This document shows, piece by piece, positions 26,454-31,343 of a stretch of 37,717 bases of DNA. The position numbers and the translations under genes were made by a program. Source of the DNA: an uncultured Actinomycetes bacterium (GTDB lineage Bacteria > Actinomycetota > Actinomycetes > Nanopelagicales > Nanopelagicaceae); contig CAILHY010000012.1 in NCBI GenBank assembly GCA_903834145.1, positions 1 to 37,717 of the forward strand. Reading direction: 5' to 3'. The notes under the pieces are model-generated. The model made no database searches, was not told where the DNA came from, and saw only the letters and a list, made by a program, of their open reading frames with translations. Every line of letters begins with the position of its first letter. The stretch's first letter is position 1.

Positions 26454-27635
26454 CTACTCGGAGTCCTGTGAATCAGCCTCTTTTGCCACCAATCGTGCCG
26501 GACGCACGCTGTGGCGCCCAAAACGAGCCTGAGCTTTATCGATCGCTCCATCGGCCTCGCGCCATCCACGCTCGCGTGCACCCAAAATCAACTGTTCCGG
26601 GGCGTCGGCCTGCAAATTATCCAGGCTGACTCCGACCAAGCGAACTCGAGCTCCATTTATTCCGACTGCGTTAAAGAGCGCTTTTACAACATCGTAGGTT
26701 TCGTGGGTGCTGTCGATAGCAAGTGGCAAAGTTTTTGATCGAGTAATTGTTGAAAAATCTGCGTAGCGCACTTTGATAGAAATCGTTTTAGAAAAAAGTG
26801 ATCGCCCGCGTAACCGTGCCGTTGCCTTTTCTGTAAGGCGCAATAACTCTTGCAACAATATTTCGGGGTCATCAATATCTCGCGCAAAAGTTTCTGCTGC
26901 ACTAATACTTTTATCTGGTTCATCGGTGACGACATCTCGATAATCGCGTCCCCATGCTAATTCGTATAAGGATGCACCTGTTGCTTCTCCGAGTGCGCGA
27001 ATCAATGTAGTTCGTGGCGTATGGGCAACTTCAGAAACAGTACGAAGCCCTAATCGCTCTAGCGTTTCGGCCGTTTTTGGTCCCACTCCCCAGATTGCTG
27101 AAACGGGTAGCGGGTGTAGAAAATTAAGTACACGATCAATGGGGATCTCCAACATTCCATTTGGCTTGCAACGGCCCGATGCAAGTTTTGCAATAAATTT
27201 CGATGATGCTATCCCTACTGAACACGTGATGCCCTCTTGTTCCTCAACCTTTGCACGAATCATCGTTGCAATTTCTCGCCCCGTTCCAATCAACCGTTGC
27301 GATCCTGTGACATCTAAGAATGCTTCATCAAGAGATATCGGTTCGACATGTGGCGTATAGGAGTGAAATATTTCCATGATGTGTTCGGAGACTTCGCTAT
27401 AGCGTGCATGATCGGGTGCAATAAATACTGCATGCGGTGCTAGGCGTTGAGCCCTGCCCACGGGCATTGCAGCATGTATCCCGTAGGTGCGCGCTAAATA
27501 GTTTGCTGACAAGACAACGCCTCTTGCCCCCGCTCCGACCACAACGGCCTTGCCTTTAAGAGATGGATCATCGCGCTCGGTGACAGAGGCATAGAACGCA
27601 TCCATATCTACATGGAGAATTGTTGCTGTAGTCAC
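26454..27635 (-). CDS. dinB: DNA polymerase IV (Y-family, DinB)
   Basis: DinB is a translesion polymerase. The 393-aa protein has an intact Y-family active site: the HVDMDAFYASV motif (D10) and SLDEAFLDVT (D103, E104), so it should be catalytically active, unlike ImuB proteins that have lost these residues. A helix-hairpin-helix (AIWGVGPKTAETLERLGL) and the little-finger domain (ISIKVRYADFSTITRS) follow. I chose the GTG at 27635 because it overlaps the dnaE2 stop as GTGA and leads straight into the conserved ATILHVDMDAF. The frame is open to 27692 within dnaE2. No clear clamp-binding motif is seen at the C-terminus (AKEADSQDSE). Confidence 0.94.
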   Translation of the reverse strand: MTTATILHVDMDAFYASVTERDDPSLKGKAVVVGAGARGVVLSANYLARTYGIHAAMPVGRAQRLAPHAVFIAPDHARYSEVSEHIMEIFHSYTPHVEPISLDEAFLDVTGSQRLIGTGREIATMIRAKVEEQEGITCSVGIASSKFIAKLASGRCKPNGMLEIPIDRVLNFLHPLPVSAIWGVGPKTAETLERLGLRTVSEVAHTPRTTLIRALGEATGASLYELAWGRDYRDVVTDEPDKSISAAETFARDIDDPEILLQELLRLTEKATARLRGRSLFSKTISIKVRYADFSTITRSKTLPLAIDSTHETYDVVKALFNAVGINGARVRLVGVSLDNLQADAPEQLILGARERGWREADGAIDKAQARFGRHSVRPARLVAKEADSQDSE

Positions 27636-30600
27636 GTTACGAGCGTACTTTGATTGAGAGCCCATTTTTCGTAAGCAGAGCGCAATTCCCATGCCCCAGT
27701 TGCTCGAAGAGAGACTCCACGGGCTCCGGTACGACGGACATGGCCGCGCACAAGAAATAGGCGTGAGTGAAAAAGGACATCGGCATAATCTTGTTGGGCA
27801 TCGCTAAAGAAAGTTGCATCATTGCAGCCATATCCATCATCCAGGCTCAGGAATATGACGCGCTTACCCGAACGCACTGGTGGCGTTTGCATCGCCACCT
27901 TTACTCCTGCAACAAGAACTAATGCCCCTGATCTTTGAGCCAGGAGATCTGAGGATCTGACGGCGCCAATTTTGTTGAGGAAATCTGCGTAGAACTCCAG
28001 AAGATGATGAGAGACATCCATACCTAAATGATCTACCTCATGACCAACCTTCTCCCCCGAGGTCAGATCCGGTAACCCGCTAGAAATAAGCGCAGGCGGT
28101 GTGAACCCAAAATTAAGTTGAGCTCCACCTAGGGCACGAGTGGGCGAACGATGAAGATCGCTCAAGTGCAACAACAAATCACGACGATTGATCTGCGTAG
28201 CATCAATGTTATGTACGTCATCAAATGCGCCTACCAAAATAAGTCGCTCTATCGTTGGGTAGGAAGCGCCAGCACGCGCATAGAAATCAGATAAGTCAAG
28301 ATATGGCTGGCCTTCAATAATGTTTTCAATCTCGGTGGCGCTAATCCCCGATAAATCACTGAGCGACATTCGAATCCCATACCCACGTGCATCGGGGAGC
28401 TTTAAAGATCTTCCAGTGCCTGCTCCATCAAACGCAATCATCGGAACACGCGCAGTAGATGCGTCAACGCGTTCAACGGTATATGTCCCAGATGAGTGAT
28501 TGACATCCACCGGCAAAACAGTGATACCCATCTGACGTGCATCATCAAGTATCAAACGCTTGGGATACATACCTGGGTCATGAGTAAGTACGCCAGCAAC
28601 AAATGCAGCAGGGTGATGTGCTTTAAGCCATGCAGATTGATAGGTCGGCAAAGCAAAGGCAGCAGCATGGGCTTTGCAAAATCCAAAGGAGGCAAACGCC
28701 CGTAATACATCCCAAATTTCCATGACCACTTCTTGCGTATATCCCCGATCAAGAGCAGCAGGAATAAACCAATCACAGATCTCTTGTTGCCCCTCTTTGT
28801 CTCCAAGTGAGCGACGTTTCTCATCAGCATGCGCCAGGGATATGCCGGTCATGATGGAGATAATCCGAATCACTTGTTCGTGGAAAACGACAACGCCTTC
28901 AGTCTCGCGCAAAGTTTCATAGAGATCTGGATGAATAATTTGTGCCTGGCTCCATCCGCCTCTGGCAGATAAAAATGGCGTAATCATGTCGCTTTTAACT
29001 GGCCCTGGTCTAAAAAGAGAGATGTCGACGATGAGGTCAGTAAATGTTTCTGGTGCAAGTTTGCCAACGAGTTCGCGCTGGCCTGGGCTCTCTACTTGGA
29101 AAATACCCAGGGTTCGCGTGGATGCAATGAGATCAAAGGTTGCTGGGTCATCCAGTGCAATAGCATCGATATCTAATGATGTTGCTTCAACGCGTTCGAT
29201 CTCCTTAATCGCATAAGCAATACTCGACTGCATTCGAACACCGAGTATGTCCAACTTCAATAGCCCCACAGCTTCGACATCATCTTTATCAAACTCCACC
29301 ATGGGATACCCACCAGCATTGACTTGTAAGGGTGCGCGATCGAGGAAACCTCCATCAGAGAGAACAACGGCGCATGGGTGCATGGCTAAATGTCTAGGAA
29401 GACCATCAAGGCGTTCGGCAAGGGCAATAGTCATCGCTGCCAAAGGGTTCTTTAGATTGAGAGATCTTAGTTCAGGAAGATTTTCCAGAGCTTGTGAAAT
29501 ATTGCGAGCACGCACATGTGGCAATGATTTTGCAATGAGATCTATCTCCATGGAAGGCAACCCCAACGCAGCACCCGTATCCCGTATTGCATGTCTGGCC
29601 CGATAGGTATCAACCATCGCAACTGTTGCACAACGAGATGTATTGCCTGGAGCCCTCCACTGCGAATCTCCGTAACGAGCAAACACAAGGTCGTAGATTT
29701 CTAACCGTCTGGCTGCCTCTACATCAATATCAATATCCGGAAGCGCCCGACGAAGAGGCGAACAAAAGCGCTCCATCAACAAGCCGTGTTGCAAAGGATC
29801 TACACCAGAGATGCCAAGAAGATGACAGATCAAGGAACCTGCACCGCTACCCCGCGCGGCAACGCGGATTCCACGATCGCGAGCCATATCCGTAATGTCG
29901 GCAACGGTAAGAAAATAGGACTCATATCCCAGCGTTGCAACAGTGGCTAACTCGTCCTCTAAACGTTGACGGGCTTTACTTATTCTCGCGCTATCGTTGT
30001 AGCGCCAATGAAGCCCCGCCTCTGATCGACCACGAAGCATCGCTTCCATTTCTTGTGATGAATTGGCGCCCACTACATGTGGTTCGGGTAAGTGGATTCC
30101 ACCCAGACCTATGTCGCGCGTTGGCGAAAGAATTGCTCGCGTAGCCCACTCTTGTGTTGTCGCTAAAAGTTCGCGAGCTGTGCGCTCTCCCCCTGCACGT
30201 GCAATCTCATTGGCAAGGGCGATCATTTCATCACTGGATTTAAAGAAACCTTCAGCATTTTTACGTTCGACATGCCGTGCATCTAGAGGCACGAGTTGAC
30301 GAGCCGAATCCAAAATATCTGCGATAGGTCCATCCTCGCGATCACGCATTCGCACAGCATTTGTGATGAGCGCTGGGATACGGTGATCCCGCGCAAAGAT
30401 GAGCGAGCGCGCTGCATGAGCGGTAGAGCGTGGACCATCGCCCGGCACTAAATGTGAAACGCACTCAATAGCTTGATCGGCAAAAAGTTCGCGGGTTTGC
30501 AAGAAAAGATTGAGCGCAAGATCGGGACGCTTTGCTGCAATAGCTGCGCCAATAGGTGATTCTGGGCCATGTAAGACATGCAAGTTTTGAGAATATTCAC

Positions 30601-31009
30601 TAAAGCGTTGCAAGAAATCTAACGTCAGAACCGGTGGGCCACTGCGAGTTAGACCTGTCTTAGGATTCTTATAGGTGTGCACACTTGTCAATAAGCGACA
30701 GAGCGAGCGCCATCCTCCATCGCTATGCGCCAAAAGAGTAATGCGCGGTAATTTCTTTTCTGTCTTGTTATTTAAGTTGTTACTTGTGGAAACACCAAGA
30801 TCAACAGCAAGATCAATCCCGATGATCGGAGCAACGCCGTATTCGACACAGCTTTGTGCAAAACGAATTGCACCCGCTAAGCCATCACGATCAGTTAACG
30901 CCAGAGCTGGCATCGCGTATTCGCTGGCCCGAGCCACGAGATCGCGTGGTTGCGTGGTGCCATATTTGAGTGAGTACGCGCTACATGCGCGAAGGTGTGT
31001 GAAGGTCAT
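27632..31009 (-). CDS. dnaE2: Error-prone DNA polymerase III alpha-type subunit (DnaE2/ImuC group)
   Basis: This 1125-aa C-family polymerase is the second alpha subunit in the window. Catalytic aspartates are present: D425 and D427 in LPDIDIDVE and D587 in LLKLDILG. The N-terminal PHP domain is degenerate: HLRACSAYS replaces HxHxxYS, TDRDG replaces TDHGN, GID replaces GIE, and the late NDLHY motif reads NAVRM. The metal site, and with it exonuclease activity, is therefore probably lost. This is consistent with an error-prone enzyme for damage-induced replication. It follows the DUF6504 gene by 11 bp and overlaps dinB by four bases. Its own ribosome site is weak, so translation is likely coupled to upstream and downstream genes. 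Confidence 0.93.
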   Translation of the reverse strand: MTFTHLRACSAYSLKYGTTQPRDLVARASEYAMPALALTDRDGLAGAIRFAQSCVEYGVAPIIGIDLAVDLGVSTSNNLNNKTEKKLPRITLLAHSDGGWRSLCRLLTSVHTYKNPKTGLTRSGPPVLTLDFLQRFSEYSQNLHVLHGPESPIGAAIAAKRPDLALNLFLQTRELFADQAIECVSHLVPGDGPRSTAHAARSLIFARDHRIPALITNAVRMRDREDGPIADILDSARQLVPLDARHVERKNAEGFFKSSDEMIALANEIARAGGERTARELLATTQEWATRAILSPTRDIGLGGIHLPEPHVVGANSSQEMEAMLRGRSEAGLHWRYNDSARISKARQRLEDELATVATLGYESYFLTVADITDMARDRGIRVAARGSGAGSLICHLLGISGVDPLQHGLLMERFCSPLRRALPDIDIDVEAARRLEIYDLVFARYGDSQWRAPGNTSRCATVAMVDTYRARHAIRDTGAALGLPSMEIDLIAKSLPHVRARNISQALENLPELRSLNLKNPLAAMTIALAERLDGLPRHLAMHPCAVVLSDGGFLDRAPLQVNAGGYPMVEFDKDDVEAVGLLKLDILGVRMQSSIAYAIKEIERVEATSLDIDAIALDDPATFDLIASTRTLGIFQVESPGQRELVGKLAPETFTDLIVDISLFRPGPVKSDMITPFLSARGGWSQAQIIHPDLYETLRETEGVVVFHEQVIRIISIMTGISLAHADEKRRSLGDKEGQQEICDWFIPAALDRGYTQEVVMEIWDVLRAFASFGFCKAHAAAFALPTYQSAWLKAHHPAAFVAGVLTHDPGMYPKRLILDDARQMGITVLPVDVNHSSGTYTVERVDASTARVPMIAFDGAGTGRSLKLPDARGYGIRMSLSDLSGISATEIENIIEGQPYLDLSDFYARAGASYPTIERLILVGAFDDVHNIDATQINRRDLLLHLSDLHRSPTRALGGAQLNFGFTPPALISSGLPDLTSGEKVGHEVDHLGMDVSHHLLEFYADFLNKIGAVRSSDLLAQRSGALVLVAGVKVAMQTPPVRSGKRVIFLSLDDGYGCNDATFFSDAQQDYADVLFHSRLFLVRGHVRRTGARGVSLRATGAWELRSAYEKWALNQSTLVT

Positions 31010-31020
31010 TTTTAGAAGTG

Positions 31021-31305
31021 TTAGATAGCAGTGATGCGCCAGATGCCGGTGACTTCATCACGTTCCATATCAAAGGTTTTAAGAGTCCCGATAGGAGCAG
31101 CCTCTACTCGCCAGAGCCCCCGTGCCTGATCATCAGGTCTGTAGATTCCATCGTTGATGCGATTCCACCATCCTCCGGATTCACACCACCTGGATAAAAC
31201 GGCATGGATACGAAAGCGTTTGCCTGCGAAGGTGAACTCCACAGGAGTTGCGCCATCGGCGAGGACATCGGCCTTGAGGTGCTCTGGGATCTGGTTTTCG
31301 AACAT
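31021..31305 (-). CDS. Small DUF6504-type protein heading the SOS mutasome cassette
   Basis: The 94-aa soluble protein has the pattern PVEFTFAGKRFRIHAVLSRWCESGGWW...LWRVEAAP, which I recognise as resembling the actinobacterial DUF6504 family; these small genes tend to lie next to dinB/dnaE2. No function is known to me. The ATG at 31305 sits within a perfect LexA-type palindrome and no ribosome site precedes it, so either the transcript is leaderless or translation starts later. The only other strong start is not obvious, which favours the leaderless reading. Its position as first gene, 11 bp before dnaE2, suggests a role in translesion synthesis or its control. Confidence 0.75.
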   Translation of the reverse strand: MFENQIPEHLKADVLADGATPVEFTFAGKRFRIHAVLSRWCESGGWWNRINDGIYRPDDQARGLWRVEAAPIGTLKTFDMERDEVTGIWRITAI

Positions 31306-31316
31306 ATGTTCGAAAA
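31295..31316. promoter_or_regulatory. LexA (SOS) box, perfect palindrome
   Basis: The core TCGAACATATGTTCGA (31298-31313) is a perfect 16-bp palindrome, flanked by T and A runs that extend the symmetry to 22 bp. It matches the Gram-positive/actinobacterial LexA consensus CGAAC-N4-GTTCG exactly. It covers the start codon of the DUF6504 gene and the expected transcription start. Confidence 0.93.
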
Positions 31317-31343
31317 ATAGCCCCTACCCCTGACAAAGAGCAA
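31314..31343 (-). promoter_or_regulatory. Probable promoter of the SOS cassette
   Basis: TTGCTC (31338-31343) and TATTTT (31314-31319) are separated by 18 bp on the minus strand. The -10 abuts the LexA box and the start codon is eight bases further on, which would give a leaderless or near-leaderless mRNA. Confidence 0.45.

Follow-up and report, generated by a model that had tools for sequence, protein, structure and literature searches.

The imuA-imuB-dnaE2 mutasome, known from Mycobacterium tuberculosis, Caulobacter and rhizobial plasmids, unites an error-prone DnaE2 under LexA control, a Y-family partner and an ImuB-C domain. This domain was named in 2013, together with the proposal that it binds DNA (PMC3765255), and in a model of the M. 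tuberculosis proteins the ImuB-C barrel touches the PHP domain of DnaE2 (PMC12926913). A standalone ImuB-C, Deide_1p01890, has been published for Deinococcus deserti (PMC8072749). In 2026, two groups of cassettes with a DnaE2B were described (PMC12926913): one, represented by Tessaracoccus, has an active Y-family polymerase (PolY), a standalone ImuB-C and RecA, and the other, represented by Arthrobacter, has ImuB-C only. We analyzed a stretch of 37,717 nucleotides (nt) from an uncultured bacterium of the Nanopelagicaceae (contig CAILHY010000012.1, positions 1 to 37,717; hereafter the window), which carries an SOS cassette opened by a gene for a 94-amino-acid protein of family DUF6504. It is highly probable that this protein is a standalone ImuB-C and belongs to a split mutasome without ImuA, of the type DnaE2B-[ImuB-C]-PolY-RecA.

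The gene, termed here imuB-C, spans positions 31021..31305 of the minus strand, starts with ATG and is present in a single copy in the window's genome. Its product scores 34.2 bits against the Pfam profile PF20114 (DUF6504), above the curated cut-off of 24.2 bits, while NCBIfam gave no family for it. We did not find the name DUF6504 in the papers searched; in the literature the family is called ImuB-C. Two independent links join the two names. The D. deserti gene located between the Y-family gene and dnaE, which we matched to Deide_1p01890 by its place, carries the annotation "DUF6504 family protein", and D. deserti ImuB-C scores 30 bits against PF20114. The same profile matches the extreme C-terminus of seven out of eight ImuB proteins taken from imuB-dnaE2 cassettes on proteobacterial plasmids (E <= 0.024), three of them above the cut-off; as a control, it also matches in Caulobacter, a carrier of imuAB-dnaE2, although the site of that match was not located. 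When profiles were compared with each other, the window family aligned to the ImuB C-termini with an E-value of 3e-5 (hhalign, probability 73) and to D. deserti ImuB-C with an E-value of 1e-4 (probability 56). Judged by sequence comparison, DUF6504 and ImuB-C are one family and, because of this, the window protein is a detached ImuB tail and not a stand-in for ImuA. An alignment of 46 sequences of the family contains 39 invariant columns. These include W89, R32, R39, R62 and R82, which fits the ImuB-C criterion of a C-terminal tryptophan accompanied by positively charged residues (PMC3765255). A plasmid search with the 94-amino-acid protein gave no match, and no relative turned up in viral contigs when these were searched with the family alignment.

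imuB-C opens a run of three genes, imuB-C/dnaE2/dinB. Its downstream neighbour, at a distance of 11 nt, is dnaE2 (27632..31009, minus strand), which encodes a 1125-amino-acid protein with PHP, palm, fingers, HHH and OB domains. The open reading frames of dnaE2 and dinB (26454..27635, minus strand) overlap; the start of dinB is most likely the GTG at 27635, within the sequence GTGA that contains the dnaE2 stop, and not the ATG at 27692. The initial annotation, which had taken the 94-codon reading frame as the opening gene of an SOS cassette, is borne out by the reading frame itself, the PF20114 match, the operon and a perfect LexA box at the start codon. In related loci, counted by species genomes, dnaE2 lies directly 3′ of imuB-C in 79 out of 80 cases, the remaining one being a contig end, and dinB comes next in all 62 loci of sufficient length, so that the gene order is conserved far beyond chance. 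Most of the other actinobacterial families in the class have a HEPN_SAV_6107 gene (PF18726) after DUF6504, nearly always located directly before dnaE2 (for example L005 1816-2232, L009 1819-2256 and L012 1875-2357; also in loci L002-L018 except L017). No such gene lies between DUF6504 and dnaE2 in the window's family.

We then compared the presence of both proteins in 120 related genomes from 58 genera. DUF6504 and a DnaE2B-like match occur together in 85 genomes, DUF6504 alone in one, DnaE2 alone in eight and neither in 26 (Fisher p 3e-18, a statistic that ignores relatedness). Where both are present, the distance between them is at most 1.5 kb in 79 of the 85 genomes. The initial annotation had held that frequent occurrence of the small protein without a DnaE2 or Y-family partner would argue against its idea; among the 120 relatives, only one of the 86 genomes with DUF6504 has no DnaE2B match, and this is a fragmented metagenome-assembled genome with 6% contamination. 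In that genome (G079, locus L121), DUF6504 and a HEPN_SAV_6107-like gene lie behind a LexA box and DnaE2B was not found. One of the genomes with DnaE2 alone (G074) has a DUF6504 reading frame below threshold (21 bits) directly before dnaE2. Across the phylum, DUF6504 was detected in 103 of 296 genomes, and among the 28 new loci that were inspected, 20 have DnaE2 within 1.5 kb of it. The conserved operon, the co-occurrence and the homology thus lend good support to the accessory role beside DnaE2 and a Y-family polymerase that had been suggested for the protein at the outset.

With respect to the partner polymerases, the window DnaE2 was placed in a tree together with references for DnaE2A, DnaE2X and the DnaE2B of Streptomyces. 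In this tree, which has a small sampling, it clusters with Streptomyces-type DnaE2B, apart from the DnaE2A of rhizobia and Burkholderia. The dinB product (PolY) keeps the catalytic motifs DMDAF and SLDEAF intact and is apparently active. Its tail, judged by eye and conserved in relatives, contains a clamp-like QLILG followed by a RecA-NT-like segment, EADGAIDKAQARFGRHSVRPARL, which was compared with the genome's own RecA, KALDTALAQIERQFGKGAVMKM. The cassette dinB is the only gene with an IMS domain in the genome, with no second Y-family gene. The cassette contains no imuA, and a genome-wide RecA search returned one strong match and otherwise weak ones only, no dedicated ImuA profile having been used. 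Neither an ImuA nor a catalytically dead ImuB, the pair by which an ImuA-ImuB-DnaE2 mutasome is recognized, was found in the cassette.

It could still be argued that the window protein replaces ImuA as a RecA-like partner, as it occupies the first position of the cassette, the place of imuA in imuA-imuB-dnaE2. We give this almost no credence: PolY itself has a RecA-NT-like motif, and the genome encodes RecA. An ImuA analogue was rejected on homology, the protein belonging to the ImuB-C family, and the analogy drawn from position in the initial annotation was mistaken, since the homology is to the C-terminus of ImuB.

The cassette rather fits the published DnaE2B-[ImuB-C]-PolY-RecA type, as judged from its genes. 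It shares with that of Tessaracoccus lapidicaptus (PMC12926913), also from the Actinobacteria, a standalone ImuB-C, a DnaE2B and a PolY that appears active and has a RecA-NT-like tail. It differs from that type, as described, in belonging to Nanopelagicales-like freshwater genomes, in having a RecA-NDp-type promoter motif and, in the window's clade, in placing the imuB-C start codon within the LexA box. In Deinococcus, DUF6504/ImuB-C also lies beside dnaE2 and a Y-family gene under SOS control, but there ImuY is reported to be inactive, the operon includes lexA and ImuB-C comes third. Compared with the imuA-imuB-dnaE2 mutasome, the window cassette has no ImuA, its ImuB-C is detached, its PolY keeps the catalytic residues and its DnaE2 is of the B and not of the A type.

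Starting from what was read directly at the locus and in its relatives, that is, family identity, operon, LexA box, co-occurrence, intact PolY motifs, RecA-NT-like tail and single Y-family gene, the following sequence of events can be proposed. Upon DNA damage LexA would be cleaved, and ImuB-C, DnaE2B and PolY would be produced together. By analogy with the models of M. tuberculosis ImuB, ImuB-C would fold as a small beta-barrel and attach to DnaE2 at the PHP domain. For PolY, two contacts can be proposed: the RecA-NT-like tail would bind RecA, and the QLILG before it would engage the clamp. With these contacts, ImuB-C would help to hold DnaE2 in the assembly, and would presumably act in mutagenesis. 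Published models of this type of complex exceed confidence thresholds (PMC12926913). The adaptor idea is supported but not new: the initial annotation had considered the role as not established, and it has already been predicted in print.

An AlphaFold2 model of the 94-amino-acid protein is all-beta, with seven strands, and of moderate confidence (predicted local distance difference test 73.9, predicted template modelling score 0.62). A Foldseek search of the PDB with this model gave nothing at E <= 0.001 and no hit below an E-value of 2. VIA-align returned Z-scores of up to 6.0 with unrelated folds only, which is uninformative at the confidence of the model. The absence of a convincing relative in the PDB agrees with the literature, where ImuB-C is described as lacking close structural relatives.

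Several observations weigh against an ImuB-C subunit that serves DnaE2. In direct comparison, the profiles of the window family and of ImuB-C show modest similarity, and their connection relies on PF20114 and on D. deserti. In the five genomes of genus g9, DUF6504 was not convincingly detected even at loose thresholds, and the LexA box, DnaE2 and PolY are kept; two Streptomyces-like genomes have a DnaE2B without DUF6504 as well. Because of these genomes, DUF6504 is not indispensable to every DnaE2. The g9 loci L116, L117 and L132, which keep the LexA box, dnaE2 and a dinB with RecA-NT-like tail and from which DUF6504 is gone, represent a natural loss. Genus g9 could also be taken to mean that imuB-C is a mere passenger of the operon, with an unrelated or dispensable function. 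We regard this as very unlikely, given the strong conservation of the protein (the 39 invariant columns mentioned above), its fusion to ImuB in proteobacteria and its place next to DnaE2 across many of the phylum's families. A further point concerns DNA binding. In other lineages ImuB-C occurs without DnaE2, and its binding to DNA was proposed from such contexts, with Ku/ligase, SplB or SRAP (PMC3765255). ImuB-C might then bind DNA as a sensor of damage and bring polymerases to lesions, instead of serving as a protein-protein adaptor for DnaE2, and residues R30, R32, W40, W46, W47 and W65, basic or aromatic and invariant or nearly so in the 46 sequences, would suit such a function. ImuB-C nevertheless tracks DnaE2 across the 120 relatives, published models put it on the PHP domain of DnaE2 and on ImuA (PMC12926913), and no DNA-binding fold was recognized in the structural model, which is only moderately confident. 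We thus consider the DNA-binding alternative improbable, and retain the ImuB-C subunit docking on DnaE2.

With respect to its regulation, a perfect LexA (SOS) box (TCGAAC-N4-GTTCGA), TCGAACATATGTTCGA, is located at positions 31298..31313, no strand being assigned to it, and contains the start codon of imuB-C. Only three perfect LexA sites were found in the genome, and one of the other two lies upstream of lexA. A LexA box precedes imuB-C in 79 of 81 sequences, window included; the exceptions are one contig end and one unexplained case. The start codon at the centre of the box is the only plausible one in the window's clade, whereas in relatives outside this clade imuB-C starts further downstream of the box. 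On the minus strand, a -10-like TATTTT (31314..31319) abuts the box, 8 nt before the ATG, and a weak -35-like TTGCTC (31338..31343), whose TTG includes a T shared by all 62 non-redundant loci, lies 18 nt from the -10. An ATG so placed, at the box centre and 8 nt downstream of the -10-like element, suggests a leaderless imuB-C message in the window's clade.

Between both elements, TGTCAG (31330..31335, minus strand) corresponds to the 5′ half of the consensus tTGTCRgtg-N8-TAnnnT of RecA-independent damage (RecA-NDp) promoters, which is the PafBC motif (PMC5656591). Each of the 62 non-redundant loci has TGTCRG-N10-TANNNT upstream of the LexA box; the T, G, T, C and G do not vary, and the surrounding positions are mostly near random. 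Its frequency is 0.17% in random 62-nt windows of loci from other families; beside the LexA box, it is found in 14 of 56 box-carrying loci of those families, with a different spacing. The full 9-nt consensus, TTGTCRGTG-N8-TANNNT, occurs in 11 of the 62 loci only, and the window itself matches the core only. PafB and PafC are both encoded in the genome, their best PDB matches being PafBC chains (7p5x, 9fnd and 6sj9), and trmI, pafB, pafC and tatC follow each other on contig C22 of the same genome (L191 2511-6289). No Pup-proteasome genes lie between trmI and pafB at that locus.

Genes under both damage controls are known in mycobacteria (PMC8223512). As with the mycobacterial recA promoters P1 (PafBC) and P2 (LexA), a single gene would here respond to both damage pathways; unlike in that pair, the PafBC-type -10 of the window abuts the LexA box and, therefore, activation and repression would act on one and the same promoter. 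On the basis of these motifs, the chances appear evenly balanced that one composite promoter drives the operon, requiring at the same start site activation by PafBC, which senses single-stranded DNA, and release of LexA, which depends on RecA sensing. In the window's clade, the operator would cover the start codon of the leaderless imuB-C message, and error-prone synthesis would take place only when both pathways agree. Such a doubly damage-controlled promoter looks new; we found no description of a -10 that directly abuts a LexA box, nor of a start codon at the centre of that box as in the window's clade.

A protein of unknown function thus becomes a probable mutasome subunit with a testable binding site, and the split mutasome would extend to a large group of streamlined freshwater actinobacteria, the cassette holding, in this genome, the only Y-family polymerase. 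Genus g9, as a natural loss, is useful for comparison. If true, the composite promoter would tie mutagenesis in these bacteria to two independent damage sensors.
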